64,000 nt of DNA from Nymphaea colorata (lineage: Eukaryota > Streptophyta > Magnoliopsida > Nymphaeales > Nymphaeaceae): the NCBI RefSeq assembly GCF_008831285.2, contig NC_045140.1:475528-539527 (forward strand). Direction: 5' to 3'. The translations under genes and the position numbers were made by a program. Each line of letters begins with the position of its first letter. Within the stretch, counting starts at the first letter, position 1. Of the stretch, positions 35,461 through 62,791 are shown in pieces. The notes under the pieces were generated by a model. It saw only the letters and a list, made by a program, of their open reading frames with translations. It did not search any database and had not been told where the DNA came from.

Positions 35461-35482
35461 CGTCGCCTTTCCGCCGGGAATC

Positions 35483-38400
35483 ATGCAGGTTCGGCCGGTC
35501 TACTATCCATCCTATATTTTGAATCCTAACTATGTTCGCATATTAGATACTACCCTTCGAGATGGAGAGCAGTCGCCCGGTGCTTGCATGACGAGTAAGG
35601 AGAAGCTAGACATTGCTAGGCAGCTCTCTCGGCTTCGCGTCGACGTCATAGAAGCTGGTTTCCCAAGTGCCTCTAAGGATGATTTCGAAGCCGTCCGAAC
35701 CATTGCCCGTGAGGTCGGGAACGCAGTCACCGACGATGGCTACGTTCCGGTAATCTGTGGCCTGGCGCGCTGCAACAGGCCGGACATCGAGGCAACCTGG
35801 GACGCCGTCCGCCATGCTCTCCGCCCGCGCGTCCATGTCTTCATCGCTACGAGCGACATCCACCTCAAGTACAAGCTCAAAAAGTCGAGGGAGGAGGTGG
35901 TGGACATCGCCAGGAATATGGTCGCTTTCGCAAGGAGCCTTGGGTGCGAGGACGTCGAGTTTGGCACCGAAGATGCGGGAAGGTAAATTCCCTCTTACTA
36001 TATGTAGATAAAATGCCGTCATTTGTGATCGTGGTTGTCGTTTCGAATCATTAGAACTGATGACAACTGTAAAATTTCGCCTGCTGGTCGGTTATACATA
36101 CGATAACAGAATACGAAACAAATCAGTGTATCATGAGGAATAGGAGATAGCAATGCCATATATGTTTTCTGTCTTTCTTTAATGACAAGAGCTCTCAGCG
36201 GAGAGAACATGATCAGTGATGCCTCCACAGTCCACACGGCATCGTTCTTGAAAAGTTCAAGCATGACCCTTGTCTCAGGTTTTTCACCAGGTAGTTATGA
36301 TCCAGCATCTCCAGAAGAAGATCCAAAATCTACCACAATTAAATTCTGGATGCCCAAAAAAAGGTCATGGGCAAAGGGTTCACGTTCAACAGCTAAACAA
36401 AGTATCTATTAGCATCACTTCAGTACACTCTGAAACAAATATGCTCCAAAATTAGATGCATCGATGAACCCTCTTGAGCCTCACACGGACAGTCTTTGCT
36501 AGAAAAAATAAATCAAACTCCTTTGCAGATCTTGTGTCAACATGTCATCTCATAATGTGGAACGGATCACTTTAGCCTTCGGGAGGGTCCAACACCCCAA
36601 AATATAGCTCGACCATGAAACTGCAGATACCTGAGTTCGCAGAGACCTGCAACCGAAGCAATGGAAAAGGAGAATCATTTGATTGTATTAACTTGACCTT
36701 TTCCTGTCATGCTATCTCTCTCAACCATTAGTTCACGATTTGGTTTATCTGTTCAATTTCTGAAGAAGCAGAAGTTTATGTTCTACAACACACCCAATTA
36801 GTTAAGGGAAAAAAACCTACCTTAGTAAAAAACCTTTGTGAATGGGATTGAAAAGTCTTCTATGGAACATGTGTTATGTGTGTGCAAGTCTGTATGTGCT
36901 TCATGACTATGCACGTGCACATGCATGCATTCCAAGGTACAGGATGAGTTTGTTTCTTTTAATTTCATTTTCACCTTATCCAGTGTCTATAGTCTTCTGC
37001 TCGTGGTTGATTTGTGTTTCTGTTGTGTCCTTCTGTTCAGATCTGATAGGGAGTTTCTTTATCTTGTCCTTGGAGAGGTCATCAAGGCTGGGGCAACGAC
37101 CCTTAACATTCCTGACACAGTTGGCTACAATTTGCCCAATGAATATGGAAAGCTGATCTCTGATATTAAGAGCAACACCCCTGCAATTGAGAACGTGATT
37201 ATTTCTACTCATTGCCATAACGATCTTGGCCTGGCTACAGCAAACACCTTAGCGGTACACAGTTTCTTGTGGTTGCCAGATAGAAGGCTTAAATTCATTG
37301 TGGAAATATATGATGCTCCTTTTGAACTAATAGCTTGAGTTATCCCAATCTAGGGTGCTTATGCTGGAGCAAGGCAATTAGAGGTTACTATTAATGGAAT
37401 TGGTGAACGAGCTGGGAATGCTTCACTTGAAGAGGTGGGTTTTAATGATATATGCATATATATCGACCGGATGCATGATACAAATTATGTACTTGGGATT
37501 TCATTAACCATGTTTGCAAGGCTTGACATCCAGCCATCTAAGTTCACTTTAGTGGTTATTTCTTGTGAACTTTCACCATTGTACGAAGGTCCTTTTTGTG
37601 ATAATATGCTGCTGATTTGAACTTTTTTGATCTTTGCATTTGTCTTGATGGCTTGGTGCAAAGATGCTGATATTGTAAATGGAAGAATGCTATCTTCATT
37701 TCTTTTTTGCTTTTCAAAATGATGGATCTCTTCGTACCGGAAAAAATAATTGAATTTCTAGGGCAGTCATTTTTCTAAGTGGATCTCTTTAGGTTTTCTC
37801 TTGGCTGCTTTTTTTGTTTATGCTTCTGTTGGTCTTACTCATAGGTGGTCATGACTTTAAGATGCCGAGGTAAAGAACAGTTGGGAGGACTTTATACTGG
37901 GATCAACACCAAACACATCATGATGGCTAGCAAGATGGTATGTTCAAAAAGATACTGGAAAGGGGAATTTCATTATGCTGATTCCTATGACATGAGATTT
38001 TTGCTGTGGTGTCAGTACAGGTTATGCAATATTCTGGTCTGACTGTTCAACCTCATAAGGCAATTGTTGGGGCCAATGCTTTCACTCATGAAAGTGGAAT
38101 TCACCAGGCATGTGTAAAATCCTTGCACCACAAGTTAAAGCCTTAAGTTATTGACTTGTAGGATTTATGGTTTCAGGCTTTGAGCTATACTTATACTGCA
38201 GCGCAGAGTGGAATCAAACTGAATTTGATTCTGTATTTCTTTTCTTAAATTTATTAAGTGTTTGTCTACAAGAGAAGCTAGATCTGGATCCATGTATATT
38301 TGGTTAGTAGTTTTACTCAATTCCCTTAGTTCATTGACCTATATGGGTGTGGCAATTTTCAGTATTACCTAGGCCAGTGAAAGGATGTGTCCTGTTTGTA

Positions 38401-41400
38401 TTTTGATGTGGATCGGATCCAACTAATGAGGGTCATGTTGTGTTAAAAAATCCCAACGTGTACCTGGGGCATTCTTGTTATGTTGGAACTTGGAAGTGAG
38501 TCCCATAGTCACAGAAAACGTGTTTTTTTTTTACTTTTCGTGTTTTTTTATTTTTTTCACTTTTTCCATTTTTTAATGTCAAGCAGTTTTTTTTTTTCAT
38601 TTTTCATTTTTTATTTGTTGCAAATCTACTTATCTTTTTGATGTTTGTGTTATTAGTTTTTCACTTATTTCATTTTCCCCACTTTTAGTTTTCTTAAATT
38701 TTTAAAAATTTACTGTTTCCATTTTTTTTCCGTTTTTTTCAAGCTCGTTGTATTATACGTAAGAAAAACCTCGCCATTTAAAACTACAAAACGTTATTTG
38801 TGACTATGGTTGGAACATCTCATGTATTTTTATGTCTTGTGAATTCCTGATTAATGATTTAATGAGACTAGGGCATGCCCAGACAGTTTGAGGCTGCCTT
38901 GGTACTATCAAGGAGATCTCCTCTCCTGTCATCTCCGTTCTCAAGGTGAATAAAATCTGGACAAGAAGATCTGACAGCCATAACTGGAGCTGCATGAAGT
39001 TACATGTTCATTAGAACACCTGGATGTACTTTAGAAACCATTTGGAAGATCTGGAAATTAAAAATTATGTTTCTCATGTTGAAGGGCCAAGAAATTCACT
39101 TGTATGAGGTTCAAAACAAAAGTCAGGTCTCTCTCTCTCTCGCACATGCGCACACGTCTTTCATTTGCATCTGTCAATTCGAGGTCTGATTATCTGTGTC
39201 ATCTTCATATTGGGGCACATAGTGGTACTCATAAAAGTAGATTCTTATTTTTTGCTTTGCCCGCTTACAGGATGGAATGCTGAAACACAAAGGTACATAT
39301 GAAATAATGTCCCCTGAAGACATTGGATTGTCTCGATCTGATGAATCTGGTATTGTTTTGGGAAAGCTTAGGTATAATTCTTTTCTTTTTTTTTTGAATT
39401 ATTATGGTATGGAACACATAAATAATTAACAACGTTTTGTAGTATTAGGGGTGCTGTTGTCTTTCTTCTATAGTTCTATGTATTTGATTTGCATGGCTTA
39501 TAATCTCCTCTCTGCTTTATAGCTATATTCGATGTACTTTCCTCTTACCACCTTGCTCATCATAGTATTTTATGATTATGAAGTTCCATGGCTCTCTAAT
39601 AACTGCGAGTTTCTTTGCAGATTCTCTTTGTAGAGATATAGCTCATGAATTAATGAATTCAGAAATCAGATACTACTGTGTTGAATCCACATGTATCTTG
39701 GATATCTGAAGTCATTCTTGCTTTTCCTAGACAAGATTTTCCAGAAGCAAGAAAACACTGAACTTAGAGATTAAAATGGGGAAGTAATGGATGTTGATAT
39801 TAGTTTCTATTTTGCTAGTGGATTTACTTCTGGATTTTGGTCATACTCAGAGTCTCAGACTAGGTTACCTAGGCAGGCTTCCATGAACTAAGCACCTAAA
39901 GGTGGCAAATGGTTTAGTTGTTTAACAACTTAAAACATAATACTTTTGTCACGTTTAATGCAAGAGTGGCATGGATACGTCTTGCATAGTCCTTAAAAGT
40001 GGTTTTTTTTTTCCTCTTTTTGTTTTTTTTTTTTATGGACACGATTCCTAGACAGACTCCAGCCTCGTGAAACAGATACTTTTTTTATTGATAAAAGTTT
40101 CATTAGCAGTTGACATATACACTTTTAGTGCGGGGAAATTATGGATGATGATATTAGTGTCCATTTAGCTAAATGAGGCACCTTTGGATTCTGATCCTAT
40201 TTAGACAAGCCTGCAGGCTTTTATAAACTATGCACCTCCAGGTGGCAGATGATTTATTCTATTCACTAATCAAAAGTTAAGACTAATAACTTTTGAGTAC
40301 TATTGCATTCTATCCTTGTAAAGAGGCGTGTGATTTGTTTTTGATGTACATGATTCCTAAATTAACAGAAGGAACAGACATAAGCAGTTAGCATATATAC
40401 TTATAAATTTTCGTGTCTGAATTTTGTAACCCCAACGTGGTTGGGCTTTGGCTATCACAAAGCACTTCGAGTCTAAATCTCATGGGCACCATCCTCTGCT
40501 GGAGATGAGGGTGCTAGTGATGGGGTTTTGTCCCTGGAGTGCAACTAAGTCTCGCTTCCTTGGTGTAGTTTCATTTTGTTAAAAAGAAAAACTGAAGAAA
40601 AAGAGTCTGAATGTTTACATGTTATGCTCCCTCTTTGTGTCCGTCTGTGCACAGTCATGTTGAGCATCCAGCACTTTTGTGTGGTCTCTTTTGCTTGGCT
40701 TACTGCTTGTGCCTCTATGTACACCTTGGAAGCCCCAACATTTGTTTGGTTGTTCAATTTGTGCGCTAAAAAGGGCTCACAGTAACTTCAAATTACCTTT
40801 TCAATTTGATTTTGAATGACCTGTCAATCCTTCAACAAAACTGTCCCTTTATAGAGCTGTCAAACTTTTTTGTTCCCACATATCTACAGCAGCCAGTTTT
40901 TATGCTTTGGTTTGGCCTAGCTTGTTTCACATTATAATGCTGCTTTGTGTGCTTTTCTAAAATTTCACTTTTTGTTTTAATTTTGGAATAGTGGGCGTCA
41001 TGCTTTGAGGTCTAAACTTGTACAGGTATGCAAGTTATCTTTTTCACTTCCATCTTCTTTCTTCCTCTTATCACATTTGAAGGTTGTTTTGATCAGTTAA
41101 TTAGTATATCTTGAACTTATAAGTTGTGGACTTCCTCCCCAGCTTGGTAAAGAATTAGATGGGAAAGAATTGGATGATGTCTTCTGGCGTTTCAAAACTA
41201 TGGCTGAGAAGAAGAAGGTTTGTGCAAAAAGAGACAACTCTTTAGCATCTTTATCTTCATTCTTTCAGTTGAGTTCAATTTGGATATTTATCCCCAATTT
41301 TTTCATCAGTTCTATTGTCTCATCTCTACCTTAAGGGAAGTGTGGGCACGGAAAATGTGTTTGTCAGTATTTTGTGTACATAGAGATGCTTATGAAGCAC

Positions 41401-44400
41401 AGATATAGTAATGGACCATATTTGCAAAATGTAAAATATACAAACAGATTTGTCACCATGACAGAAAGATGCATGCAATTTGAGACAGGAGCATGGACAA
41501 AATGAAGGCAAGGAGCCCACTTGCCCAGGAAACATGGGTTGCTACCTTAATGATACTGCCATACTGGATTGTAGTCTGGAAATAGCCCCGAGATTTTGAG
41601 AAAGACTATGTGGTTCTGGATATTTGACTTCTTACTATCCTGCTGGTTTATATTATTTTGGCAGTTGGGACACTCGGTAAGATTTTGACTAGGTTGTTAC
41701 ATAGATTACTTGATTACATGCACCATATATAGGTTTTTGTAAATACTTACATATCAAGTGCCTAAAAGATTCATCAATATTTGAAGCTCAAAAGATCATA
41801 ATTCTGCATTAAAAGAAAACATTGTTCAAGTATTTATCCTTGGGAAACAGACTATAGCAAACATGGCTATGATGTTAGATTTAAAAAAATATTAAACAAA
41901 ATTATGGATCTTGATTGTCATATTTCAATAGAGATAGTTTAGCTGGCAATACTCCAGTCACTCCTACACACACAGACACAGGCTACTGGCTGTTCTCTGA
42001 CTATCGATCATTTTCTCTTCCAATGTACCAAACCAGGTACTTGTGTTCTGCTGATAGCAGAACTCTCTTAGCATACTTGCATATGTGCCTGGAATCAGAA
42101 CATTCAACTACCAGTTTATATTGTTGGCGTGGCTTATTCCCGGTCCTCCCGGCATTAAGGATTGAAAGATGTGCTTTTTCTATTTGCATTGTATGTTGTT
42201 TTAAGAATTGAAAGATCAAACATGCATATAATACAATTCTTTTGAATTTTGTTCATTTTCTATGTTGGTAAAAAGTGATCATGTTCAACTATCCTTGATT
42301 TTGTATCATTTTGCTATTAGATATTATGCTCATTTTCTCTTTTCTTAGTCAAAGTAATCCCTTGTGTTAATTACAGCATCTAAGTGATGAAGATATAGAA
42401 GCATTAGTTTCTGATAAAATCTTCCAGCCTCAAACAATTTGGTCTCTGGAGAATGTACAGGTATAATACATTTTATCTTATCCCGTACTTTTCCCATCAC
42501 AAGATGCTTGTTGCTTATGATTTCTATAATGCAGGTTACTTGTGGAACCTTGGGTCTTTCAACAGGAACTGTTAAATTAGTTGGACCTGATGGTGCAAGA
42601 CATGTAGCATGTGCAGTTGGCACAGGCCCTGTAGATGCAACATATAAAGCTATTGATAGCATTGTACAGGTAGACTCAAAACTATTTCCTTTATTTGATC
42701 CATTCCCAATCACAATATGTTCTTTGTATACACCAAAAGAACTTTCTGTTGTTTATGGGATTTGATTTCTTGTGAAAATAGATAGTTATAAGATAAGAAC
42801 TTTTTCATCAAGAGAAATGAGAATACTTTATTGGCAAGCAGAAAATTCAGGTTCACATTATGCACATATCGTCACCGTTTCCCACATTGGAACGTCTGAC
42901 ATTCTTGCCTTTCGTTTCTTCTCTCTTTATCTTCTTGCTGTGTATTGTTATTGGAGATTTCTCACACCTGTGGCTGTATATTTCCAACTTAATCTCAATT
43001 ATGTTTTTACCTTTTTGACATTTGCATCAAGACTTTTGCCTCTCAACTGATTATAAGAGGGTATTTTATATCCAGATTCTATAGAAATAATTGCATTTGT
43101 CATATCCTAGAAATGGAATGAGGTTGGTACTACATGCATTACAGAATCATCTCCCAACTTCATTTTTTGCCTGTCCGATCATATGTTTGGGACTCGTTGT
43201 TTTGAAAACATGAAGCCGTATGAGGAAAAACTTTTGATTGAGTCCGAAACACTCAACCTGCCACTGGGTGTTCTACCACAAGACTTGTCACCTAGTTTCG
43301 CTCTTGTCTTTCTGCTAAAACTAACCATATGGTCTTACGCTAGCATTTGCAGGATCAAAAACAGGGAGCATAACATCATCCTCATTAACCTCATCCACGA
43401 GGGCTCACCATAGTCCATTTATGCTTCTTTCATATCTTTCCTAGCTTTTTTTTACTTTTAAAGCATTTGTCATGTACATAGATTTCCACTGCTGGCACTG
43501 ATATTGATTTGTCAGTGCACAGAGCAACATTCTGATGTGCCTCGGCTAAATGGTGTTTTGGCTGAGCGACCCCTACTAATAAGCCTTTTCTTTGTGGTAG
43601 TTGCAACTTACAAATGATTTTCAGTTGATTATTTTCCTTCACCTATGTGCACCTTTGTCGCTGGGGGTTATTTGAAGTCAATCTTTAAAAGCAGTAGAAA
43701 TCTATCGTAAAAAGTGGAAGGTTTTATATAGAGGTGGGCATTGGGCCGGGTACCGGACGGATACCTGGTACCCAGCCTGATCGGGCCTGGGTTTGGGCTG
43801 GTTAAAATGAAGAATATTTTTTTTAAATATAAAATAATATTTTTTGAATATAAAGTACATTTTTAATAATAACATATATATTATTAGTAAAATAAAAATA
43901 ATATTAAAAACTTACCGAGTTGAATCGAGCCTCGTCAGGCCCAGGCTCGGGTTTTGATCATCGGGCCAGCCCAATATGCCCAGGCCTAGTTTTATACCTT
44001 TGGTGGTATAAATTGAAATCCCCTCTTTCTTCAACTGTAAATCAATATCTCATGTGTAAATCTAGCTTTAAATCAATGTTTTCTGCCCCTAGGTGGCAAG
44101 TTCTCCTCATACGTAACCTGTAAGCAGCCTTCAACAACTTGAGCTCAGGATAACTAGTAAATATACCAGAGGGTCGTGTTTGTAGGGTTGTCTTCCTTGG
44201 TGGGCTCCATGTGTCGTATAAAGTGGGTGGCATGCATTTCTCAGATTTATGAAGTGTGTTTTCTCGGTAAATGTTGATAATTCTTGTGTCCATCTGAACG
44301 TTACATATATTAAACCAGATGGGAAATAAAGGAATTTATATTTATACAGTGATATGTTTTTACTTGGTGGATATGAATCATGCTTGTCTTCTTCAGAGCT

Positions 44401-45023
44401 TGACAAGCAAAAATCCTAGTTTTACTTCTCTTTGTTCATTTACCTATGCTTTGTAAATATATGCGAGTTTCTGGTAAATGTGCCCAAAGTATATGTGAGC
44501 TTGATGATCTGCTTCTGCTTTCTGTTTTAAAATTTTGGTGCTGGACTCAATTATCAACTTAATCTCTGGTTTTTGAAGGTGCCAGTAACACTTCTAGAAT
44601 ACAGTCTAAATTCTGTCACCGAGGGTATTGATGCAATAGCCCATACACGGGTAGTTATACGTGGGGAGAACAGCCATACGGCTACACATGCCTTAAATGG
44701 GGAAACAATCCATCGCACTTTCAGGTTTGAGAGATATCTGCTAACTGGTGTTGACTTTTGTTAAATGCATTTGGCATGTTTTCACTTCTGAAAAATACTG
44801 TTCTGCTTCCTGGAATTAACTCTTGTTCGATGTTCAGATTGACTGAAAACTGTGTTTCTCTTTCAGTGGTTCAGGAGCCGAGATGGATGTTGTTGTATCT
44901 AGTGTTCGGGCATATGTGAGTGCTCTGAACAAGATGCTAGGTTTCAAGTCTGCTTCATCGAGAAAGACATTGAACAGCAGCCAAGAAATTGTTGGGAAGG
45001 AATCGCTTGCTTTTGTTGATTAA
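35483..45023 (+). CDS. IPMS: 2-isopropylmalate synthase, 12 exons, 568 aa, no obvious transit peptide
   Basis: It condenses acetyl-CoA with 2-oxoisovalerate, the first committed step of leucine synthesis, normally in plastids. Exons: 35483-35982, 37041-37254, 37354-37434, 37845-37937, 38021-38107, 39271-39371, 40992-41025, 41143-41217, 42377-42460, 42535-42669, 44579-44724 and 44867-45023; the sum is 1707 nt, in frame. The HMGL-like TIM barrel includes [14 protein letters not shown] (about 20-33), the metal-binding HCHNDLG (224-230) and NGIGERAGN (252-260). Exons 9-12 encode the C-terminal leucine-sensing domain, ending [17 protein letters not shown]; its presence argues against a methylthioalkylmalate synthase. 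Intron 5 has a GC donor. Most plant IPMS proteins are about 60 residues longer at the N-terminus; here an in-frame TAA precedes the first ATG, so the transit peptide is missing unless an upstream exon exists. The usual FSPEDAGR motif reads FGTEDAGR. Confidence 0.92.
38108..38109 (+). other. Non-canonical GC donor of IPMS intron 5
   Basis: Exon 5 ends at the HESGIHQ codons and must join the DGMLKHKG codons of exon 6. The only junction that keeps this conserved protein sequence is CAG|GCATGT with the acceptor TTACAG at 39265-39270, a GC-AG intron. The flank fits the known GC-AG donor pattern. Confidence 0.8.
38503..38809 (+). mobile_element. MITE family B, reference copy in IPMS intron 5
   Basis: Terminal inverted repeats CCATAGTCACAGAAAACG and CGTTATTTGTGACTATGG (imperfect) bound a T-rich core with TTCAAGCTCGTTGTATTATAC and AAGAAAAACCTCGCCATTTAAAAC. 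The same termini occur at 31476 and about 32300. Confidence 0.8.
39776..40380. repeat. Diverged direct duplication in IPMS intron 6
   Basis: About 39776-40060 and 40133-40380 share, in order, GGGGAARTWATGGATG, GATATTAGT, GGATTYTG, GCACCTMMAGGTGGCA and a GATTCCTA-containing end. The copies are clearly diverged, so this is old. Confidence 0.65.
43732..43989 (+). mobile_element. MITE family A, copy 2 in IPMS intron 10
   Basis: AGGTGGGCATTGGGCCGGG, then ACCTGGTACCC and TCGGGCCTGGGTTTGGGCTGG at the left; a pure A/T core; CAGGCCCAGGCTCGGG and CGGGCCAGCCCAATATGCCC at the right. Order and spacing match copies 1 and 3. Confidence 0.75.
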
Positions 45024-47131
45024 CAATGAATGCTTGAAAATGGAAATTTGAGTGGGTGAAAACAGTTTGAAACGAAGAACGAAGTCATTGAGTCAAGGTC
45101 ACATTAAGGAGATTGTTGTTCGTGGGCACATAAGTTCAAGATGTGATATGTGCCTGACCGTAGAATGTCCACCCTAAGGATATGCTTGTAGCAAACAACA
45201 AAGATTTGATTATTCAGTAGCAAATTGTTCTATTATTTCAAAATATTACCTATTTGCAAGCTAAATTTTCCATTGCATTGCGGTATACCAGAGACGGTGT
45301 TAACTTTTCTAGAGTAAAGAGTTTTTATGAGATATACATGGCATTAGAGAATATTATGTCTAGTAAATGAAATTCTGTATCTTATATAGTTTTTTATCAT
45401 TTTGTATATGATATTATAGCATCAATATATTCCTAATTCGATGTTTAAGTTTCTTATTCTTCTAAAATTAGAAGTCAGGTTCAGGTAGGTCCGGTCGTGA
45501 CTTGATTTGGAGTCACTCTAAGTCAGTTCTCTAAAATTAATAGGCATACAGCAACCACACATAATTCACCGCTTGGACCTTACACCACGCAATGATAAAT
45601 TTAAGTATCTAAGGTTCCTCGAGAATTCACATATAAAGTCATTAATCTAAGTAAGAAACAAAAATCTTCCACGTTTCTTTAGCTGTTTGACTAAGCACTT
45701 CTTTATCATCCTTTGGAGGTGAAGGTGGCGGTGGCAGGGACTGCACTGATGGTTGTGGTGGATCATTTATCATTTTCTTATTTAGAGTTAGGAACTGTTA
45801 TATCTTTCAAATTTTCAGTAGGTTGATCATTTTGTTCCTCAAAATCATGAATTGTTTAATCAGCATCATCTAAGCTTGCAATAGCTTCTTCTCTCATACA
45901 TGAACATGTGGAGGTACGTAAGGGCAAACTTTGGTACCTGTGTCGTCATACCCGTACTCATGTTGCCGTACCTGACCCAAAGTGAGTACTTGGATACACT
46001 TGGGTACTTCTTATATCGAAAATGATTCAAACTCCTTAATTTTACTTTATTTAAAATTTTTCAACTCAGTTTTCATTTTGATTTTAAAGTTATTGTTCAT
46101 TAACATGGAATATTTTTTTAATTTATATCATTTGTTTATTTAAATGTTACTTTCATTTTGACTTTTTTGATTATTTTGCATATATACATATATATACCTT
46201 GCCGTACCTTCGTATCTACATTTTCTAAAGTTGTCGTATCTGTACCCATAACTCCATACTCATACCCGAACCAAATTTGCATCCCCATGCTTTTGGGTGC
46301 ATTTCATGAGCCAGTTCGGCTTTCTATCTCGTAGAACTGCCTTGTGATTTAAGTTGCATGTGAATGAATCACCTCTCCTACACAGGTTTTTCCCGGTAAA
46401 ATGATGGATCACTTCTCTTACTTTTTTTATTTTCTCACTAGCCTATAGGAGAAGTATAGTCTTTTCATTTTTCATGCAGGTATAACCAGCATGCATGTTG
46501 ATTATTCGATGTGTAGGATCTTACAAAATGATGTAAGGTTGTGGTCTAGCACACAATTTTGTTCTGAAGTCAGAAGTTATTTCCACTCCCATCATTGTAA
46601 TGTTTATTGGATGGCATCCTAAATGTACTACTAGTTGAATTGGTGTTGCTTATTTGGTGTATTTGACTGTGTAGAATTGATCTGCACTAGGCTGTATATC
46701 TAGGAATAACCTGCCTCCCCCTATACCAGTTTGAGTGTTATTTATTTCTGGGAGAATTGACATCTTTATCAAATTTACTTGCGCTTTTTCTGGTTTGTGT
46801 AAGGTACTGGTATGATACTCCTGTTTTAGATGTGAAAAAATGATGTATTTCAATGAAGAAAACCAGATGGGAAGCCGTTTGGGAGACAGAGAATGAGAAT
46901 CAGTACAATTTTTTTACCTCCAGCTATACATCTGTTCACATTTTTGTTCATTGAATTTTAAAGGGTCCACTCGTGGCAGTCAAATGAGATGGTTTGACGG
47001 AGAGTGCAGTCCAGCTTGCCCCGCTGGTGAATGCAAGGCTAGCAAGCATCACCCCTGTTGGTGTAGGATTTACGGTGTACCGACAAGCTAACCAAATCTA
47101 CTGCTGGTCTCTAGTGTTTTGCATATGCAAC
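44295..47131 (+). repeat. Inverted segmental duplication, plus-strand copy (IPMS 3' end and flank)
   Basis: From TGAACGTTACATATATTAAACC to GCATATGCAACT this segment matches the reverse complement of 58859-62598, apart from about 870 bp present only in the other copy. It covers the end of IPMS intron 10, exons 11-12 and about 2.1 kb of 3' flank. The flank holds no gene; it contains a TACCCGTACTC-type repeat at about 45920-46290 that both copies share. Confidence 0.9.
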
Positions 47132-47144
47132 TTTAATTTTTGAA

Positions 47145-47412
47145 ACCCAAGCATGGGCCCAGCCCAATCCGGCAGAGTTAATTTTTTTTAATATAAAATA
47201 AAAAATTTTAAATATAAAATTATTTTTAATAATAAAATATATATCATTATTAAATAAAACCAATATAAAAAATAACTCGAGCTGAATAGGGCCTCGTTGG
47301 GCCGACCTGAGCTGGCCCAATACATTATTGTGTAAGCCTAAGACAGCTTTTTCAGGCCCAAACCCAGGCCCGATTGGGCTGAGTATGAGGTACCAGCCTA
47401 ATGCCCAAGCTT
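47145..47412 (-). mobile_element. MITE family A, copy 3 (inverted, at a duplication junction)
   Basis: Read on the minus strand it begins GCTTGGGCATTAGGCTGG, continues with CAATCGGGCCTGGGTTTGGGC, an A/T core, and ends GGGCTGGGCCCATGC, matching copies 1 and 2. It sits exactly between the end of the IPMS 3'-flank homology (47131) and the start of the IPMS 5'-flank homology (47413). Confidence 0.75.
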
Positions 47413-47917
47413 AAAATTAATAGTGCTTTATAAAAATCAAACTGACCATAGAACTTTCATCGACCTGGACGGATCATCATTAATAATTGGTAGAATTTCA
47501 TCTAGGTTTGAGTCAAAAATTAATAACCTAGGTGCGGATTCCAATCTATCTGGATCCGTGCTTTGACCAATCAATTTGGATCAGTATTTTTTGCGACCAA
47601 CATCCAAATCCCTTTAGGAGCTCACGAGGAATTTATGTGGTATAAAAAACTAAATTACCTTAATCTAAATCGAGTTTAGATATCCGACGGCAAACTCAAA
47701 TTTAGTTAATTATATCGAGACTCGACCCGTTTGCATCCCTCCGACTGGATTGGCGGCAAGATCCTTTCACTAATTAGATTCGGAACCAGAACTGTGACTG
47801 AGTCCGCTGACATCATTTTAACGCCCCCTTCAGTTCCCTCTCACTAGTAAGTACGAAAATCCTCCAACTTGGCTGCAGCCGCCCACGACAGAGCAGAGGA
47901 GGAGCGAACAGATTCCT

Positions 47918-48202
47918 ATGGCTTCATTAGTTCTAAGCCATAACTTCAGCATCTGTAATAGGTCCTATTGTATCATTGGCACCCCAAACCAGAAGTTGCG
48001 CACCTCAGCATTCTGGCCGAGGATAGTAAGTTGCTGTGTTGGGCAATCCCAACTGGTCTACTACTTGTCGCACATTCTGGATCCCAACTACGTTCGTATG
48101 GGAAGCAATCGCCCAGCACCACCATGACCAGCAAGAAGAAGCTCGACATCGCTATACAGCTCTCCTAGCTTGGTGTCGACAACATAGAAGCTAGTTTCCA
48201 AA
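47918..48202 (+). pseudogene. IPMS exon-1 pseudogene, unit 1
   Basis: Starts MASLVLSHNFSICNRSY, includes GTPNQKLRTSAF and ILDPNYVR, then a roughly 30-nt deletion removes the DTTLRDGEQ codons and shifts the frame before MTSKKKLDIAIQLS. It ends near the IEASF codons and passes into GC-rich repeat. The first about 60 residues look like a plastid transit peptide. The 5' flank is homologous to 34913-35070. Confidence 0.85.
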
Positions 48203-48690
48203 CGGCGCAGCCATGCCTGGTCAGGTCCGCCAGGCCAAGCCTGGCCAGGACACAGCCCAAACCGAACACGCCCGGCCAGGACATGGTCGACTATGCCTAG
48301 CCTGGTCTGGCCAGGACATGTCCGTCCAGACCCGACCACGTCCGATTGGGCCACGGCCAGCCAAACCCTACGACAGCAGCCCAACCCAGCTCGGCCATGT
48401 CCGCCAAGCCACGCCCAGCTCAGCCCGGTCCACCAGGCCATGCCCAGATAGGTTCACCACGCTTGGCCAGGTATGCCAAGGCTGGCCTTGGCCGTCCAAT
48501 CTAGCCCCACTAGGCATGGTATAGGCCATGGCCGCCCAGTCTGGCATTGGCCAGGTACGGTCTATGCCACGGCCCACCACACCCAGCCAGGTCCGGTGGG
48601 TCATGACGGGGACAAGGCCGGGCCATGGTCGACCATGTCAGCCCGGCCTGGCGAGGTCCTTCCTGGACAAGGCCGGCCAGGCCACGTGCG
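48203..48690. repeat. GC-rich degenerate minisatellite, tract 1
   Basis: Imperfect repeats of words such as CCAGCCAGGTCCG, GCCATGCCCAG and GGCCACGGCC, with few TA-containing stop codons, so long open frames appear in several frames on both strands. No protein family is recognised. Confidence 0.8.
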
Positions 48691-49035
48691 TAGATTCTAA
48701 TCTATCCCGATTAGTGACCAATCTATTTGGAACAAATTTTTTTTTTTTGTGACCAACATCCAAAATCCCTTTAGCAACTCATAAAAAATTTTTATGGTAT
48801 AAAAAACTAAATTACCTTAATCTAAATCAAGTATGGATGACCGACTCCAAACAAAAATTAGTTAATTATATTGAGACCCGACCCCTGTTTGCATCCCTCG
48901 AAGTAGATTGGCGGCGGGATTGAGTCCCCTCACATAATTTCATCGCCCTTTCAGTTCACTCTCACTGATAAGTACGAAAATCCTCCAACTTGGTTGTAAC
49001 CACTGACAGCAGAGTAGAGGACTGAGCGGATTCCC

Positions 49036-49310
49036 ATGGCTTCATTAGTCCTAAACCCAAACTTTAGCATCCATAATGAATCCTACCGTATCGTCGTTAA
49101 CCCAAACTAGAAGTTGTGTGTCTCTGCCTTCCGGCTGAGGATTGTCCGCAGCTGTGATGGGTAGTCCATGTCGGTCTACTACCCGTCGGACATCCCGGAT
49201 CCCAACTACGTTCGCATATTCGATATTATCTATCACGATCGGGAGCAGTTGCCTGGCACCACTATGACCAGCAAGGAGAAGCTCAACATCGCTATGCAGC
49301 TCTCTCGGTC
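49036..49310 (+). pseudogene. IPMS exon-1 pseudogene, unit 2
   Basis: Begins MASLVLNPNFSI, but a TAG follows in the PNQKL region. Later codons are largely kept ([26 protein letters not shown]) with the DTTLRDGEQ motif degraded. It breaks off earlier than the other units, at the QLSR codons. Confidence 0.85.
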
Positions 49311-49640
49311 CGCTACGCCACGACCTGGATGGGCCACACCAAGCCATTACACGACCGGCCATGCCTAGCCAGGTCCGGCAATTCTGGCCCAGGTACGTCC
49401 ATGCCACTGCCGGCAAATACCGGCCAGGGCACGGTCGGGCTTGGCCATCCAAACCCGGCTATGTCCAACTGAGTCACGGCCGGCCATGCCTACCCTGGTC
49501 CAACCATGCTTAGTGTGGTGGCCAGGCCTTGGCTGTCCAATCTGGCTTTGGGTAGATCCGGTCCAAGCCACGGGAGGCCAGTACTGGGCATGACCGATTG
49601 GGCCATGGCAGCCCAACCTAGTCGGCCACGTCACGCTGAG
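49311..49640. repeat. GC-rich degenerate minisatellite, tract 2
   Basis: Same word composition as tract 1 (CCGGCCATGCCTAGCCAGGTCC and related). Confidence 0.75.
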
Positions 49641-49687
49641 TGACTGAGTCCGCTGACATCTTTTCATTGCCCCTTTAATTTCCTTTT

Positions 49688-49880
49688 GGCTGAAGATCGT
49701 CTGTTGTTGTTAGGCAGTCCCGACCGATCTACTAACCATCGCACATCCTGAATCCCAACAAGGTTCGCATATTCAATATTGTCCACCATAATGAGGACCA
49801 GTCACCCAGCCCTCCCATGACCAGCAAGGAAAAGCTCAACATCATAGAAGTTGGGCTCGACATCATAGAAGCTGGTTTGC
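49688..49880 (+). pseudogene. IPMS exon-1 pseudogene, unit 3 (partial)
   Basis: Lacks the start and first about 30 codons, because 5' UTR sequence (GCCCCTTTAATTTCC) joins directly to the CTTTTGGCTGAAGATCGTCTG region. Degraded NPNYVR, DTT and MTSKEKLN codons follow, with a local duplication around GACATCATAGAAG. Ends in the shared fusion point. Confidence 0.8.
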
Positions 49881-50145
49881 CGATGGCCGACAGCCCAGCA
49901 CGGCCAGGACACGGCAAACCAATAACAACCAAGTCTGGTTGGGCCACGGTCAGGCATGGTTGTCCAAAACCGACATGTCTGGCCGGGTGATGGTAGGCCA
50001 GACCCGTCCAGGACCGGCTGGGCCATTGTCGGCCAGACCCTGCCACGACAGCCTAGCCACGCCAGCCTAGCCACGCCACGATCGGCCACATCAGCCCATC
50101 TTGGCCATGCCTAGCCCTGCTGACAGACCACGCCCATCCACAGCA
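49881..50145. repeat. GC-rich degenerate minisatellite, tract 3
   Basis: Starts GGCCGACAGCCCAGCACGG after the IPMS fragment, like tracts 4 and 5, and ends at a new 5' UTR-like stretch (TGACTGAGTCTGCTGACATC). Confidence 0.75.
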
Positions 50146-50284
50146 GCGGGGTGCGAAGTGACTGAGTCTGCTGACATCATTTCATCAGCCCCTTCAGTTC
50201 CCTCACACTGATGATGACTGCGAAAATCATCTAACTTGGCTGCAGCCGCTGACAACAGAGTAGAGAAGAAGCGAACATATTTTC

Positions 50285-50592
50285 ATTGTTTCATAAGTCA
50301 TAAACTCTAACTTTAGCATCCGTAATAAGCCATACTGTATCGTCGGAACCCCAAACCAATAGTTTCCAGTCTCTGCCTTTTGGCCGAAGATCGTCTGTTG
50401 TTGCACTGGGCAGTCTCGGCCGGTCTACTAACCATCACACATATCGGATTCGTTCTACGTTCGCATATTTAATACTACCCACCGCGTTTGGGAGCAGTCG
50501 TCCGACGCCACCATGATCATCCAGGAGAAGCTCGACATCGCTAGGCAGCTCTCCTGGCTTGGTGTGGACATCATATAAGGTAGTTTTCCAAT
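50285..50592 (+). pseudogene. IPMS exon-1 pseudogene, unit 4
   Basis: The start codon position reads ATT. GTCGGAACCCCAAACC, CCGGTCTACTAACC, ACTACCCACCGC and CAGGAGAAGCTCGACATCGC follow exon 1. An in-frame TAA replaces the stretch before the fusion point. AT-rich leader sequence is absent upstream. Confidence 0.85.
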
Positions 50593-51008
50593 GGGCCGAC
50601 AGCCAAGTGCGTCCATGCCCTACCAAGTCCACTAGGCCATGGCCGGAACTGGCCACACCCAGCCAGGACATGGCCGGCCATGCCCAACTAATTCTGGCCA
50701 GGCTAAGACCCGAATTGTCCCTCCAATCTGGCCCGACCAAGTCCACTAAGGCACGACCCGGCTCATCCACATCGGCCATGTCCAGCCAAGCCATGGCCGT
50801 CCAATCTGTCTCAGACAAGTACTGTCCAGGCCACGGCCGGCCAGACCCAGCCCAGCACGGTCACGCCTGGCAGCCCAGCTCGGCTAGGTCCACCACGCCA
50901 GGCCAGGTCCGCTGGCCACAGCCAGCCAAGTCCGCTAGGGCAAGCCACGCCCAACCAGGTTCATCCAAGACATGGCCGGCCATGGCCAACCAACTTGGCC
51001 AGGCCACG
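50593..51008. repeat. GC-rich degenerate minisatellite, tract 4
   Basis: Same repeat words. A 167-codon open frame (50559-51062) runs through it but has no conserved motif and reflects composition. Confidence 0.75.
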
Positions 51009-51389
51009 CGAGCAAATTCCAATCTATTTGGATTAGGTTTTTTTTTTGTGACCAACATCTAAATCTCTTTAACAACTCATAAAGAATTTCTGTAGTATAA
51101 AAAACTAATTACCTTAATCTAAATCGAGTTTGGATGTCCGACTGCAAACTGAAATTTAGTTAATTATATCGAGACTCGACCCGTTTGCATCCCTCCGACT
51201 GGATTAACGGTAGGATCCGTTCACTAATTAGATTTAGAACCAGAACTAGCAAGGCAGTGGGATGCTGAGTGATTAAGTCATCTGACATCATTTCATCAAC
51301 CCCAGTTCCCTCTTGTTGATCAGTACCAAAATCATCCAACTTAGCTGCAGATGCCAACAGTAGAGCAAAGAAAGAGCGAGCGGATTCCC

Positions 51390-51697
51390 ATGGCTTCATT
51401 AGTCCTAAACCCTAACTTTAGCATCTGTAATGGGTCCTACCGTATCGTTGGCACCCCAAACTAGAAGTTGTGTGCCTCTACCTTCCAATCGATGATTGTT
51501 TGCTGCAGTGCTGGGTAGTCCCGATCGGTCTGCTAACCGTCGCACATCCGAGGTCCCAACTACGTTCTCATATTCGATACTATACACTGCGATGGGGAGC
51601 AGTTGCTCGGCATGATGATCACCAACAAGGAGAAGGTCGACATCGCTAGGAGTCTCTCCCGACTTGGTGTCGATATCATAGAAACATGTTTTCCAAC
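51390..51697 (+). pseudogene. IPMS exon-1 pseudogene, unit 5
   Basis: Best-preserved leader: MASLVLNPNFSICNGSY then RIVGTPN followed by TAG. Later codons resemble DTTLRDGEQ and KEKLDIAR, with indels. The 5' UTR and AT-rich leader (about 51010-51389) are retained. It ends in ACATGTTTTCCAACAGCCGACAG. Confidence 0.87.
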
Positions 51698-52345
51698 AGC
51701 CGACAGACTAGCACAACCACACTCGACCAAGTCCACCAGGCCACGGCCTGGACCAGCCACGCCTAGCTAGGACACAGCCGGCCACGACCGGCCATGCCTA
51801 GCCATGTCTCGCTAGGACAAGGCTGGCATTGGCCGTCCAATCTGGCCCGGCCAGGTCTGCGAGGCCACGGCCCAATCCAGCTATGCCCGGTCAAGACACG
51901 GTCTGCCATGGCCAACCTAGTCCGGCCAGGCCAAGGTTGTTCAATCTGGGTCGCCCAGGTACGTTCCAGGCCACGACCGGCATGGCCGCCCATACCTGGC
52001 CTTGTCCGGTGGGGTCACGGCCAACCAGACCTGGTTGGGTTTAGCTGGGCCATGGTCGGCCAGGCCTTGCCACGGTAGCCCAACCCAACCCGGCCATGCC
52101 ATAGCTGACCACGTTAACCCATCCCGACCATGCCTGGCAGCCTGGCCAGGTACGCCATGGCCGGCCACACCTAGCCAGATTCGTCCAGGACACGATAGAC
52201 CATGGCCATCCAATTTGGCATGGTACAGGCCATGGCTGGCCATATTTCTGTCCAGATTCCCACCAGACCCTACCATGACAGTGCAGCCATGCCCGGCCGC
52301 CCACGGTAGCCAGCTAGCCATGCCACGACTGACCACGCCAGCCCT
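51698..52345. repeat. GC-rich degenerate minisatellite, tract 5
   Basis: The longest tract (about 650 bp), with the same GCCATGCCCAGCC and GGCCACGG words. Confidence 0.78.
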
Positions 52346-52854
52346 TGACTTGGTCATGAAAAGGATTAAAGGCCTATTTCACAACATAGTCCAAAAGCCC
52401 TGTGGATTATTTTGCCAAAGACCCAACTAAGCCCAAAGACCTTGACCACGTATAAAGGCGTGGTCGATATCACAACCACCATTTATGAGCTTTGGCCCGT
52501 TGAGGCCCCTAATGCGAGAGTGGTCTTCATTCCGCAAATGAAGAGTCAAAGTTATGTTTCACCTATCAGATCTTTGATAGTATGTTGTCATGTGCCCGCA
52601 GTGTCCATGTATGTACTTGTGTCTTCGTAGTAAGCCTGAAAAGATGCCAATACTCTAAAAAGCAGGTACAAGAAGCCCAACTTCAGCCCTCGAGGCATCC
52701 GAATTGACTACCAGAGTTTCTTCCGCGAACGATCAGTTTTGTTGTCCACTGCAATTGCCATGTTCATGACAGGTGCCACCATCGCCATAATCTGACTAGA
52801 TATCTTGAACAGGAGCAGAGCAATTTGTCGTCTCCAGTCCCTGGACAGAGAGAT
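52346..52854. other. Unidentified segment between GC-rich tracts
   Basis: About 500 bp of balanced composition. An open frame at 52412-52630 and others have no motif I recognise. It may be a captured fragment of another gene or an old element, but this is only a possibility. Confidence 0.35.
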
Positions 52855-53068
52855 TCGACCACGCCATGGCCGAGCTGGACTGCCATTGTCGGCTGGGTTA
52901 GGCTGGGCTGGGTTGTTGTGGTAGGGTCGGACCGGCCTGGCCCGATCGGACCTGGTCGGCCGTGGCTTGGACCATACCTGGCTGAGCTAGATTGGACGGA
53001 CCTTGCTGGGCATGGCCGGCCGTGTACTGGCCGGGTGTGGCTGGGCCGGGCCGTGGCCTGGCAGAGCA
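52855..53068. repeat. GC-rich minisatellite, inverted tract 6
   Basis: Reads GGCCGAGCTGG, GGCTGGGTT and GGCCGGCCGTG on the plus strand, the complement of the words in tracts 1-5, so this tract is inverted. It runs directly into the glyoxalase II fragment. Confidence 0.75.
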
Positions 53069-53074
53069 TAAAAT

Positions 53075-53768
53075 AACAAGCAAGGAGAACATAGGAACCG
53101 ACAAATAGAAAAAATGAAGAGGAAATCATATATAAAAGAATAAATAATTTCACGATATGAGAATCACCACTTACAAGTATGCAACCTACCTAGTCGGAAG
53201 AAAAAAAGGAAATTTAGAACTACTCGAACCTAATTACGTAAGTGGCAATACATGGCCAACAGCAAAAAGAATCGGATTCTTATTGCGATGAGCATTCTAG
53301 ATTGTTTCCTTCCACAAGAAAATTAAGACGAAAGAACTTCAACAAGCAATATCCCTAGGATCCACATATCCAACAAAGAAGATCAAAACATGGATCATAC
53401 TCAGTCACTCTCTTGAAAGCGAAATCTTGACTATGAGTTCGTACGATCCACATATCCAACAAAGAAGATCAAAACATGGATCATACTCGGTCACTCCCTT
53501 GAAAGCGAAATCTTGACTACGAGTTCGTTCATTGTATCAGACACAGAAGGAAAACAAGGACAACAACAAGGTAAAAGGAGGAAATGGCATCATTGTTCAC
53601 CCTTGAAGAAGGGAAGGAAACTCGAAGGCCAGAGTCCTCGAGAACATGGCAGAGGATCCTCCAGTGTAGCTGAGATGACGAGCGATTGAGTACAACTAAA
53701 AATGAGATTACGTAAGAATGTCTTGTGAAAATGGCGGTGACGCAGGCAGAGCGAGATTAAGCGGCACT
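53075..53768 (-). pseudogene. Glyoxalase II 5'-end copy (promoter side, exon 1, part of intron 1)
   Basis: It matches about 26695-27290 almost throughout, in the same orientation. The exon-1 start ATGTTCTCGAGGACTC is kept, but a 2-nt net insertion (CTTCGAGTTTCC where the gene has CTTCCTTTCC) shifts the frame, and exons 2-8 are absent. It carries its own 86-bp tandem duplication. It borders the inverted GC-rich tract on the left and AT-rich DNA on the right. Confidence 0.9.
53359..53530. repeat. 86-bp tandem duplication in the glyoxalase II fragment
   Basis: GATCCACATATCCAACAAAG...GAGTTCGT occurs at 53359-53444 and again at 53445-53530; the parental gene (near 26970-27050) has it once. It therefore arose after the copy was made. 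Confidence 0.9.
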
Positions 53769-54204
53769 GTCATTAATGCTCACATGTTTTTTTTTTAACG
53801 ATAGATTTTTTTAAACAATCCAACAACATCTACAACATAGAATTTCCTTTCTAAACTATATATGATAAGAATCAACAATACCTTATTCTTTTAGTGTTTA
53901 ATTATTAGATATCATGTTTGTTGAAACGAGAATACAGTATTTTTAAAATGTAAATTCTTCACGCAGTTCTATTTTAAAACTACAATGTTTTTATTATTAA
54001 ATGCTTCTTAAGAATTTTTGTGTCTAAAACCACAATTAGTTGAACCCTCTCCAGTACTACCATTCGTGAGGATGAGTTATTTTTGTTCAACTAGTCCCCA
54101 CTTAGAGATGATCGAGAAAATAAGGACTGGTTGTCCTTTGAATTTGAGAAATGAGCTAGCCAGGTGCTCTGGGACAGATCGCACATTCTTTCCAATGTGA
54201 ATAG

Positions 54205-54600
54205 GATGTCAACGATCGGATATCCATCTGAATTGCTTTCAAAAAATCGAATATGGTAAGCAATTTAACATCCGAATGAGAAAATCAGATTGAATTCGGA
54301 TTTAAGAAATCACATCCGATCGGATATGGATTCAGATTCGGTTTTAAATAAATATCCGTTCGGATACTATCTTAACAAGTCTATCCGAATCTGAACTGTG
54401 AGTTGATATCCAAATTATAACTTGCTATCGAATCTGAACTGTGAGTTGATATCCGAATTATAACTTGCTATCGAATCCGAACCACAAGAGTTGATATCTG
54501 ATTCCGAAGAGAGCTGATATCCAAATCTTGTAACCTAATATCTGAATCTGAACTGCAAAAATTGATATATGAATCCTATAGCTTAATATCTATTTTGAAG
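54205..54600. repeat. GAATCC-rich degenerate repeat, copy 2
   Basis: Starts near GATGTCAACGATCGGATATCC and contains repeated ATCCGAATCTGAACTG and GAGTTGATATCC words, including a near-exact 57-bp repeat around 54383-54495. Confidence 0.65.
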
Positions 54601-58470: not shown

Positions 58471-60639
58471 ATTCTCATATACTTGTAGAAGAAGTTATGT
58501 AGGATCATCTACCATCGAATTGTACACAAAACAACCTATTATCAAAATTGAAGTGTCACGCCCTTGTATAAATAGTCGTCTTTGCAATTTCTGTTTTCCA
58601 GTCAGCCATGCCATTTTTTAATATGATTTTTTAACTTTAGGTTCCACCAAGCCAAATTGCATCATCATGCTTCTGCTGGTGAAATTACAATTCCATACCG
58701 TCCTAAACTGACCCTTCCTACTTATAAGCGCAGAAAAGAAAAAATAGTACTGTGTTAGACACAAAGAAAAAATTGGGATCCAAGTCTAAGGAAGTGCACT
58801 GATAGACACAGGTTCGAACCACCCAGCTGATCGTATCATTTAATTGGCTTGCCAGTCGTAGTTGCATGTGCAACACCACCAGAGACCAGCAGTAGTTCTG
58901 GTTAGCTTGTCAGTGCACCGTAAATCCTACACGACAGGTGTGATGCTTGCTAGGCTTGCATTCACCAGCGGGGCAACCTGGACTGCACTCTCCGTCAAAC
59001 CATCTCATTTGACTGCCATCAGTGGACGCACTAAAATCCAATGAACAAAAATGTGAACAGATGTATACCTGCAGGTAAAGAAATTGTACTGATTCTCATT
59101 CTCCGTCTCCCAAACGGCTTCCCATCTGGTTTTCTTCATTGAAATATGCTTACATCATTTTTTCACATCTAAAATAGGAGTATCATACCAGTACCTTACA
59201 CTAACCAGAAACAACAGAAGTAAATTTGATAAAGATGTCAATTCTCCCATAAATAAATAACACTCAAACTGGTATAGAGGGAGGCAGGTTATTCCTAGAT
59301 GTACAGCCTAGTGCAGATCAATCCTGCACAGTCAAATACACCAAATAAGCAACACCAATTCAACTAATACTACATTTAGCATGCCATCCAATAAACATTA
59401 CAATGATGGGAGTGGAAACAACTTATGACCTCGGAACAAAATTGTGTGCTAGACAAGCTAGACCACAACCTTACATCATTTCGTAAGATCCTACACATCG
59501 AATAATCAGCATGCATGTTGGTTATACCTGCATGAAAAATGAAAAGACTATAATTCCCCTATAGGCTAGTGAGAAAATAAAAAAGTAAGAGAAGTGATAC
59601 ATCCTTTTACCGGTAAAAATCTGTGTAGGAGAGGTGATTTATTCAATGCACCCAAAAGAATGGGGATGCAAATTTGTTATCTTAACTCACACAGGTATGG
59701 GTCCGACAACTTTAGAACATATAGCAGAATGTATATGTATATATGCAAAATAATCAAAAAAGTCAAAATGGAAGCAACATTTACACAAACAAGTGATATA
59801 AATTAAAAAAAAATTACATGTTCATGAACAATAACTCTAAAATCAAAATGAAAGCTGAGTTGAAAAAATTTAAACAAAGTAAAATTAAGCAGTTTGGATC
59901 ATTTTCGATATAAGTACCCAACTGTATCCAAGTACCCACTTTTGGGTACGGGTACGGCAACATGGGTATGGGTACAGCGACACGGGTACGTGGACCTTAT
60001 TGAAGTAGCCATGTCACTTAGGTTTGAGTGATTCTTAGGGCACTAACTTAAGAAAGCACATGCTACTTTGTTCTCTCTCTAGAACTTGAAGTTTCCTCCA
60101 CACATAATTTCTCAACGTTTGTCTATGTAACTGTGTACATATAAAAATATATATATATGATGCATGCCTCCCTCTACCAGGCCCCCAGCATAGAGGGCAT
60201 GCTCCTTGCTCAGTGTCTAATGCTCAACAATCGGACACTTTAACATCTTTTATTGTAAAAAATTAGAAAAAAAAAAAAGTGTGGGCCCAAAGGGAAGCCA
60301 TTGCTGTGCCCCATGGCCAACTGGCGGTGCCAGCAGGAAGATGCGATGGCCACCCCTGGCCAGTGCAATTTTTTTTGAAATGGAGGCCGTTCCTCTCCCT
60401 TATGGTGCCATGATGTCGATCGAGATCTCCGCGATGCTTTTCTTTTTTTGTGGAAAGAATAGAGATCAAACTGCCCATGGTCGTCATGGTAACAGTGGAG
60501 CATCATAGGGTCTCACTTTTTCTATATAGTGTATATATGTCTACATGTACATATAGATAGAGAGGGAGATAGCCACTCGGGCCTCCCAGTCTAGCTTGCC
60601 ATCTAGTTTGGCTTCCAACATTCTTATTTTATTTACAAA

Positions 60640-60850
60640 ATCAAGCACATATTAATCATCTTTATGCCCAAGAAATATCTAAGAGATTCTGAAGTGTTTC
60701 TCAAGATGGGGCTTTAGTGCCTGAAATATCTTTCACACTGCTCCCTGTAAGTATAAGGTCATCCACATGTTGTTATTATTAACGTAGAGTTCTAGGCGGA
60801 CTGAAGAGTTTTCAAGAAGAAATTACTGGATCATTCATACACCACTCCCA
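60640..60850 (-). pseudogene. Copia reverse-transcriptase fragment
   Basis: On the minus strand, in shifting frames, KPHLEKHFRIS and LRYFLGIKM resemble the Copia region that follows the YVDD box. It lies within the roughly 870 bp found only in the minus-strand duplicate, so it probably marks an old insertion there. Frames are broken. Confidence 0.55.
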
Positions 60851-61879
60851 AAGTTTGCCCTTACGTACCTCCACATGTTGATGTATGAGAAGAAGCTATT
60901 GCAAGCTTAGATGATGCTGACAAAAAAATTAATGATTTTGAGGAACAAAATGATCAACCTACTGAAATTTAAAAGATATAACAGTTCCTAACTCTAAATA
61001 AGGAAATGATAAATGATCCACCACAACCATCACTGCAGTCCCTGCCACCACCATCTTCACCTCCAAAGTATGATAAAGAAGTGCTTAGTCAAACAGCGAA
61101 AGAAATGTGGAAGATTTTTGTTTCTTACTTAGATTAGTGACTTTATATGTGAATGCTCGAGGAACCTTAGATACTTAAATTTATCATTGTGTGGTGCAAG
61201 GTCCAAGCGGTGAATTATGTGTGGTTGACCTGATTCCTAATAATAGTTTATCTTTTATTATTTTTTTCACTTTAACTGTTGTTTCTGTGTGCCTATTAAT
61301 TTCAGACAAGTGACTTAGACTAACTCAAAATCAAGTCATTACTGGACCTACCTGAACCTGACTTCTACTTTTACAAGAATAAGAAACTTAAACATCGAAT
61401 TAGGAACATATTGATGCTATAGTATCATATACAAAACGATAAAAAACTATATAAAATACAGAATTTCATTTACTAGAGATAATATTCTCTAATGCCATGT
61501 ATATCTCATAAAAACTCTTTACTCTAGAAAAGTTAACACCGTCTCTGGTAAACCGCAATGCAATGGAAAACACAGCTTGCAAATAGGTAATATTTTGAAG
61601 TAATAGAACAATTTGCTACTGAATAATCAAATCTTTGTTCTTTGCTATAAGCATATCCTTAGGGTGGACATTCTACGGTCACATCTTGTGCATGCTGGAG
61701 TACAGCCAAGCATATGTATAGTCCAGGGCACAAAAAAGTCAAAGATTGAACTTATGTGCCCACGAACAACAATCTCATTAATATGACCTTTTCCCAAGTA
61801 TCCCAAAGGACTCAATGACTTCGTTCTTCATTTCAAATTGTTTTCACCCACTCAAATTTCCATTTTCAAGCATTCATTG

Positions 61880-62324: not shown

Positions 62325-62598
62325 CTTCAAAGACCAGAGATTATGAATCCAGAACAAAAATTTTAAAACAGAAAGCAGAAGCAGATCATCAAGCTCACAT
62401 ATACTTTGGGCACATTTACCAGAAACTCACATATATTTGCAAAGCATAGATAAATGAACAAAGAGAAGTAAAACTAGGATTTTTGCTTGTCAAGCTCTGA
62501 AGAAGACATGCATGGCTCATATCCACCAAGTAAAAACATATCACTGTTTAAATATAAATTCCTTTATTTCCCATCTGGTTTAATATATGTAACGTTCA

Positions 62599-62791
62599 TG
62601 TTGAATTAGAAGACTTTAAGTTTCTAGGTGGTTCTTTGCAATATTTAATAGTTAGGAGTTCTCTTTAAACATTCCTCTATTATCGGTTGATGTAATTTGT
62701 AAATCTCTCTTCTACCCTAATCTCTTTATTATGGAGATTAGGGTTAGTAAATGAATTAACGATTCTCTCACTAAGACTGCCGGCTGTAACA
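62599..62791 (+). repeat. 5' LTR of the Copia element
   Basis: Begins TGTTGAATTAG and ends GGCTGTAACA, with the standard TG...CA ends (extended TGTT...AACA), followed immediately by the primer-binding site. Confidence 0.87.

Follow-up and report, generated by a model that had tools for sequence, protein, structure and literature searches.

A decayed tandem array of 2-isopropylmalate synthase exon 1 fragments joined to a GC-rich minisatellite in Nymphaea colorata

In the water lily Nymphaea colorata (assembly GCF_008831285.2, contig NC_045140.1, here C3), truncated copies of the first exon of a 2-isopropylmalate synthase (IPMS) gene, each joined in mid-exon to a GC-rich repeat, are lined up in tandem behind an IPMS gene, which raises the question of how such an array is made and whether it serves any purpose. 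We analyzed a window of 64,000 nucleotides (C3:475528-539527), whose positions are used below unless a chromosome is named, and searched a genome of 407.8 Mb in 783 contigs. The window carries one IPMS gene, gene A, followed by the array and by the 3' part of a second, inverted IPMS gene, gene B. The array is most likely an old rearrangement scar without function, neither a working gene nor an active element. As for its origin, it rather probably began as a local duplication made during break repair, which was joined to a GC-rich minisatellite and then multiplied by unequal exchange.

Self-comparison of the window and comparison with gene B confirmed a repeated chimera of IPMS exon 1 and GC-rich DNA, described in the initial annotation as at least four units and a partial one. 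Five units of about 0.5-1.3 kb, four fuller and one partial, lie head to tail between 47.5 and 52.35 kb, and in each the front of IPMS exon 1 leads into a GC-rich block. The IPMS pieces (47880-48202, 49035-49308, 49714-49888, which is the partial one, 50284-50592 and 51389-51696) are all on the plus strand and share 74.6-80.3% identity with gene B (E 5e-33 or better). Units 1, 2 and 5 are of a long type that includes approximately 230 bp of AT-rich upstream DNA, and units 3 and 4 are of a short type. From the end of the gene A arm onward, the features are as follows.

47146-47410, no strand assigned: dispersed AT-rich repeat with GGCCC-rich ends, spanning the junction of gene A arm and array; at least 41 genome-wide matches (40 of 247 candidates scored)
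47411-47569, plus strand: copy of the gene A 5' flank (34908-35071), 78%, Kimura two-parameter distance (K2P) 0.144
47530-48203, plus strand: unit 1, long, with AT-rich upstream part, leader and exon 1 front
48204-48689, plus strand: GC-rich block of unit 1, GC 0.67, 5-bp rhythm, related to C3:8.214-8.218 Mb
48690-49308, plus strand: unit 2, long, its IPMS end about 34 bp ahead of the common site
49309-49640, plus strand: GC-rich block of unit 2
49641-49888, plus strand: unit 3, short, largely without leader and start; its IPMS portion spans about 49682-49888
49889-50145, plus strand: GC-rich block of unit 3
50146-50592, plus strand: unit 4, short, leader and exon 1 front, with 32 nt exact to gene B
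50593-51009, plus strand: GC-rich block of unit 4, beginning in register with the unit 5 block
51010-51696, plus strand: unit 5, long
51697-52349, plus strand: GC-rich block of unit 5

The content proposed for the units, namely leader, start codon, transit peptide and about 60 conserved codons, was found in large part: units 1, 2, 4 and 5 hold the leader, the start region, the codons of the transit peptide and the greater part of the ~60 conserved codons that follow, with a deletion of about 22 nt in unit 1 and ATT at the start codon position of unit 4. A breakpoint common to the array had also been claimed, and it stood for four of the five units, whose IPMS parts end within 6 bp of each other on gene B (positions 7788, 7783, 7787 and 7788 for units 1, 3, 4 and 5, respectively); unit 2 departs from it. 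Likewise, the proposed junction sequence CGACAGCC is exact in units 3 and 4, has one change in unit 5, is altered in unit 1 and is absent at the unit 2 junction. In an unrooted tree of the exon part, the five units were separated from genes A and B with 99% ultrafast bootstrap support on a stem of 0.069 (support within the array, 44-68%). The break common to four of five units and the 99% clade argue for one fusion that was then amplified, and they rule out a separate fusion in each unit. The exon 1 protein of gene B matched seven places genome-wide, which are genes A and B and the five units, and whole-genome searches with unit 5 and with this protein returned no further copy of either. A separate search of plasmids, of no bearing on a plant genome, had no match. 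On the sequence evidence, a single fusion followed by local amplification, as first suggested, thus has good support in units 1, 3, 4 and 5, and unit 2 probably shares this history.

The material that was copied can also be specified. The AT-rich upstream part of the units matched the genome here only, and the 5' flank matched here and at gene A. Since DNA from upstream of the gene is included in the array, the copied template was genomic DNA together with its 5' flank and not a spliced RNA, which rules out an mRNA retrocopy. In their exon parts the units differ from one another by 22-34% (K2P 0.256-0.475), and the AT-rich upstream part of the three long units by K2P 0.18-0.242. All five reading frames are broken before the junction, ruling out a protein-coding array, and differences from gene B, summed over the units, fall almost evenly on the three codon positions (102, 79 and 106). 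The distances between units and the five broken frames therefore indicate that the array is old and is no duplicate created by assembly.

The parent genes lie on the arms of a large inverted duplication, and three features of this surrounding region go beyond the initial annotation: the rearranged 5' end of gene A, the inverted gene B, and a set of gene fragments with an inverted GC-rich block at the right edge of the array (52350-53771).

31318-47132, plus strand: left arm of the inverted duplication, carrying gene A (blastn of the A side against the B side, inverted matches of 78-97%)
35390-45023, plus strand: IPMS gene A, exon 1 with rearranged 5' end (family named via the gene B exon 1 protein)
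58860-64000, minus strand: right arm, starting at 58860 and continuing past the window, holding the 3' part of IPMS gene B

The front of gene B is intact, and the start codon (C3:550091) lies about 10.6 kb past the window end. The exon 1 protein of gene B matched the Pfam family HMGL-like and, among solved 2-isopropylmalate synthases, gave a best E value of 1e-63. The open frame of gene A has its first methionine near 35483, without a transit peptide, and a stop codon, read by eye, at 45021-45023. With coordinates extended past the window, the duplication pairs approximately 31.3-47.13 kb with 58.86 to about 80.5 kb, so that the genes stand tail to tail at least 14 kb apart and the arms enclose a spacer of 11.7 kb that contains the array. 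Large inverted duplications are structures prone to instability. Compared in 250-bp steps, the arms differ by 4.5-15.6% in the left flank, 1.6-6.8% over most of the gene body and 5.2-9.8% in the 3' flank; the lower divergence of the gene body hints at gene conversion there. The A arm ends on its outer side in four 223-bp units in tandem (30573-31436), and parts of these match the corresponding end of the B arm. The motif GGCACCCCAAACCA occurs three times, once in altered form, at the gene A 5' end (35250-35985).

The GC-rich blocks have a GC content of 0.63-0.67. In most of them the strongest autocorrelations include those at lags of 5 and 10 bp, and GGCCA is the commonest 5-mer. Against a second GC-rich place at C3:8.214-8.218 Mb, each of six blocks (the five of the array and the inverted one at its right edge) scored above 100 of 100 dinucleotide shuffles. 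A 25-base GC pattern with up to 3 mismatches occurred at seven places, three in the array region and four around C3:8.216-8.233 Mb (0 for the reversed control); a 27-base pattern with 3 mismatches matched only the C3:8.214-8.218 Mb locus and nowhere in the array. From these comparisons, the GC-rich block appears to belong with a repeat type of this genome. The second locus also holds a copy of a dispersed AT-rich repeat with at least 44 matches (40 of 257 candidates scored). Near it, two direct repeats of 4.1 kb with 95.6% identity (C3:8220128-8231182) lie between GC-rich blocks and are probably the long terminal repeats (LTRs) of a retrotransposon. We had considered C3:8.21-8.23 Mb as another gene duplication and rejected this, since its 4.1 kb repeats look like such LTRs.

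To the right of unit 5, pieces of two other genes flank the inverted GC-rich block.

52350-52862, plus strand: fragment of a lipid-transfer-protein-like (LTP-like) gene, with part of an intron, the last exon and the 3' part, 71% to C1:35470217-35470731
52863-53065, minus strand: GC-rich block, inverted
53082-53771, minus strand: incomplete copy of the neighboring glyoxalase II gene's 5' end (26700-27299), 86-88%, with an internal 86-bp tandem repeat

Directly upstream of the C1 match are exons whose translation, judged by eye, resembles a lipid-transfer-type protein, and the C1 locus contains repeated exons of such a gene (local positions 3874-5154 of that stretch). The exon at 22859-23167 of the neighboring minus-strand gene matches glyoxalase II (E 1.4e-29), its link to the 5' end at 26700-27299 being made by eye. 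A further short match of the glyoxalase II front was found at C7:6343595-6343657. Followed in the sense direction, the front of IPMS and that of glyoxalase II each lead into a GC-rich block of the same orientation, and both come from within 30 kb, making two of the three gene sources local.

From these elements we infer a mechanism and an order of events. The IPMS 5' flank, leader and first ~100 codons would have been copied just behind gene A, and the broken end in exon 1 would have been joined, via end-joining or template switching in break repair, to a GC-rich minisatellite with a 5-bp rhythm. Unequal exchange or repeated template switching between GC-rich blocks would be the simplest way in which this single fusion could then have given rise to head-to-tail copies. 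More breaks in the same stretch may have brought in the LTP-like and glyoxalase II pieces and inverted one GC-rich block, and the copies would have decayed afterwards.

Several observations count against this local origin. The break of unit 2, at gene B position 7822, is about 34 bp earlier than the common site, and past the junction only the GC-rich blocks of units 4 and 5 are clearly in register (scores of 85 and 83), in-register scores for the 18 remaining ordered pairs of blocks being 23-49 and in many cases not exceeding those out of register. The LTP-like piece, whose other match is on C1 only, lies between GC-rich blocks of opposite orientation and has the appearance of a fragment captured between the inverted ends of an element. 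Four of six further copies of the dispersed repeat found at C3:8.214-8.218 Mb directly adjoin a GC-rich block, on the same side, and because this pairing is seen there as well, the block may belong to a mobile element. Moreover, genome searches perform poorly for GC-rich blocks. The unit 1 block retrieved only itself, missing its relative at C3:8.214-8.218 Mb (84% over 62 bp in another alignment), and the block from that locus also retrieved only itself and missed the array.

These points bear on the main rival, in which a transposon that captures genes and carries GC-rich subterminal repeats (foldback-type, Pack-MULE, CACTA or Helitron) would have taken up the IPMS, LTP-like and glyoxalase II pieces before the IPMS part was tandemly amplified. 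We regard such an origin as somewhat unlikely. Host gene fragments inside, a trait of Pack-MULEs, were found in the IPMS, LTP-like (named by eye) and glyoxalase II pieces, all three adjoining GC-rich blocks, and the opposite-orientation blocks around 52350-52862 could be the long arms, built of short tandem repeats, of a foldback element, but the left one is indistinguishable from unit 5. Yet of the 48 inverted-repeat pairs in 46000-54500, the 25 longest include none of transposon type that frames the array, a single AT-rich pair of 36 nt (72%) linking the flanks, although gapped or very diverged repeats could escape such a comparison. Long inverted repeats flank the array on both sides only in the form of the duplication arms that carry the genes. 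A second composite copy was not found in searches that are weak for GC-rich DNA, and two of the three fragments have a local source. Against the GC-rich blocks of the six dispersed copies, none of 100 shuffles was as good as block 1 and 1 of 100 as good as the inverted block, whereas the other four array blocks were equaled or beaten by 6 to 56 of 100. The Pack-MULE-type element named in the initial annotation was accordingly not borne out in that form; a capture element of some kind is possible given the two additional gene fragments and the inverted GC-rich block at the right edge.

Another reading starts from gene A itself. Over exon 1, genes A and B differ at 34 sites in 35435-35667 and at 7 from there to 36000, and in 250-bp steps from 35750 to 45250 they are 1.6-6.8% different, except for 26.4% at step 43750, which holds a dispersed repeat. 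The change most likely falls at 35646 (2-unit support interval, 35597-35674), and the array break corresponds to about position 35665 in gene A. Since the interval includes this position, gene A changes history near the same codons as the array break. We estimate the probability of a chance coincidence at about one in seven, the interval covering 77 bp of an exon of approximately 550 bp. A module ending at the IIEAGF codons might thus have been exchanged recurrently, an old version of it having replaced the gene A 5' end, which lacks a transit peptide, and the GC-rich block might be break-prone or mobile and join gene fronts; we consider this quite unlikely. Gene conversion of gene A by the surviving units was rejected: at 35 sites where A and B differ, each unit agrees with B at 22-27 and with A at 0-5. 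If gene A did exchange its 5' end there, such scars could alter where a leucine-synthesis enzyme goes in the cell.

A regulatory locus, in which truncated sense transcripts or read-through into the inverted GC-rich block would give rise to small RNAs acting on the IPMS genes, seems very improbable from the sequence at hand. It would be consistent with the stretches exactly identical to gene B (32 nt in unit 4, 22 in unit 3 and 21 in unit 2), with the inclusion of DNA upstream of the gene and with the pattern of base changes. Taking gene B as the ancestor and summing over units, the sites of which are not independent as the units share ancestry, transition-type differences were commoner at CG (60/247) and CHG (51/199) than at CHH sites (46/381), with 24/539 at A/T sites. 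This could mean long past CG and CHG methylation, for which the evidence is mixed. The same count for gene A against gene B was similar (CG 6/47, CHG 7/31, CHH 8/67, A/T 3/88), and hence the bias is not specific to the array. Observed/expected CpG ratios were 0.56 in unit 1 and 0.60 in unit 3, compared with 0.96, 1.06 and 0.89 in units 2, 4 and 5 and 0.99 in gene B, so that CG depletion is limited to two of the five units. A role in silencing is further opposed by the orientation of the five IPMS copies, all on the plus strand, which leaves no IPMS hairpin in the array; the complete genes, A and B, do lie in opposite orientations but are widely spaced. Neither is there any exact stretch of at least 21 nt with gene A, nor, in unit 5, any of at least 18 nt with A or B, and the units have long decayed.

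Finally, although tandem arrays are prone to misassembly, an artefact of repeated or collapsed reads is scarcely conceivable here, as units this divergent, with unlike lengths and boundaries, are not made by artificial duplication.

Several known systems invite comparison with the array. Truncated paralogues are known to silence their parent genes, as with AtFOLT, PAI and soybean CHS. The array resembles these loci in placing partial gene copies near a paralogue, and differs from them in lacking inverted IPMS copies and in its low identity. Composite satellites and minisatellites can arise from gene pieces, and here too a gene piece and a short repeat were multiplied in tandem. Head-to-tail copies of one unit are present (five, in two lengths), but a satellite keeps many copies alike, whereas this array has five divergent copies at one locus. 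In grasses, Pack-MULEs prefer the GC-rich 5' ends of genes. The array, with gene fragments in a composite with repeated terminal-like blocks, is similar to Pack-MULEs and to MULEs with multiple terminal inverted repeats (PMC3310237); unlike them, it showed no such framing inverted repeats, occurs at one locus in the searches made, and has the gene fragment itself tandemly repeated. An array of such make-up did not turn up in searches of the literature, which is no proof of its absence from print. The nearest case was the maize P1-wr cluster, in which fusion genes frame tandemly repeated gene copies and end-joining is given as one source of such fusions (PMC2686159). Both show head-to-tail amplification beside fusion genes, although P1-wr consists of eleven nearly perfect 12-kb repeats (PMC2686159) and the units described here are small, decayed and truncated. 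Unusual in its details, the array lets one read how a single mid-exon fusion with a GC-rich short repeat can multiply beside its parent gene and gather pieces of other genes, and it suggests that gene-fragment mosaics may form locally without an identified transposon.

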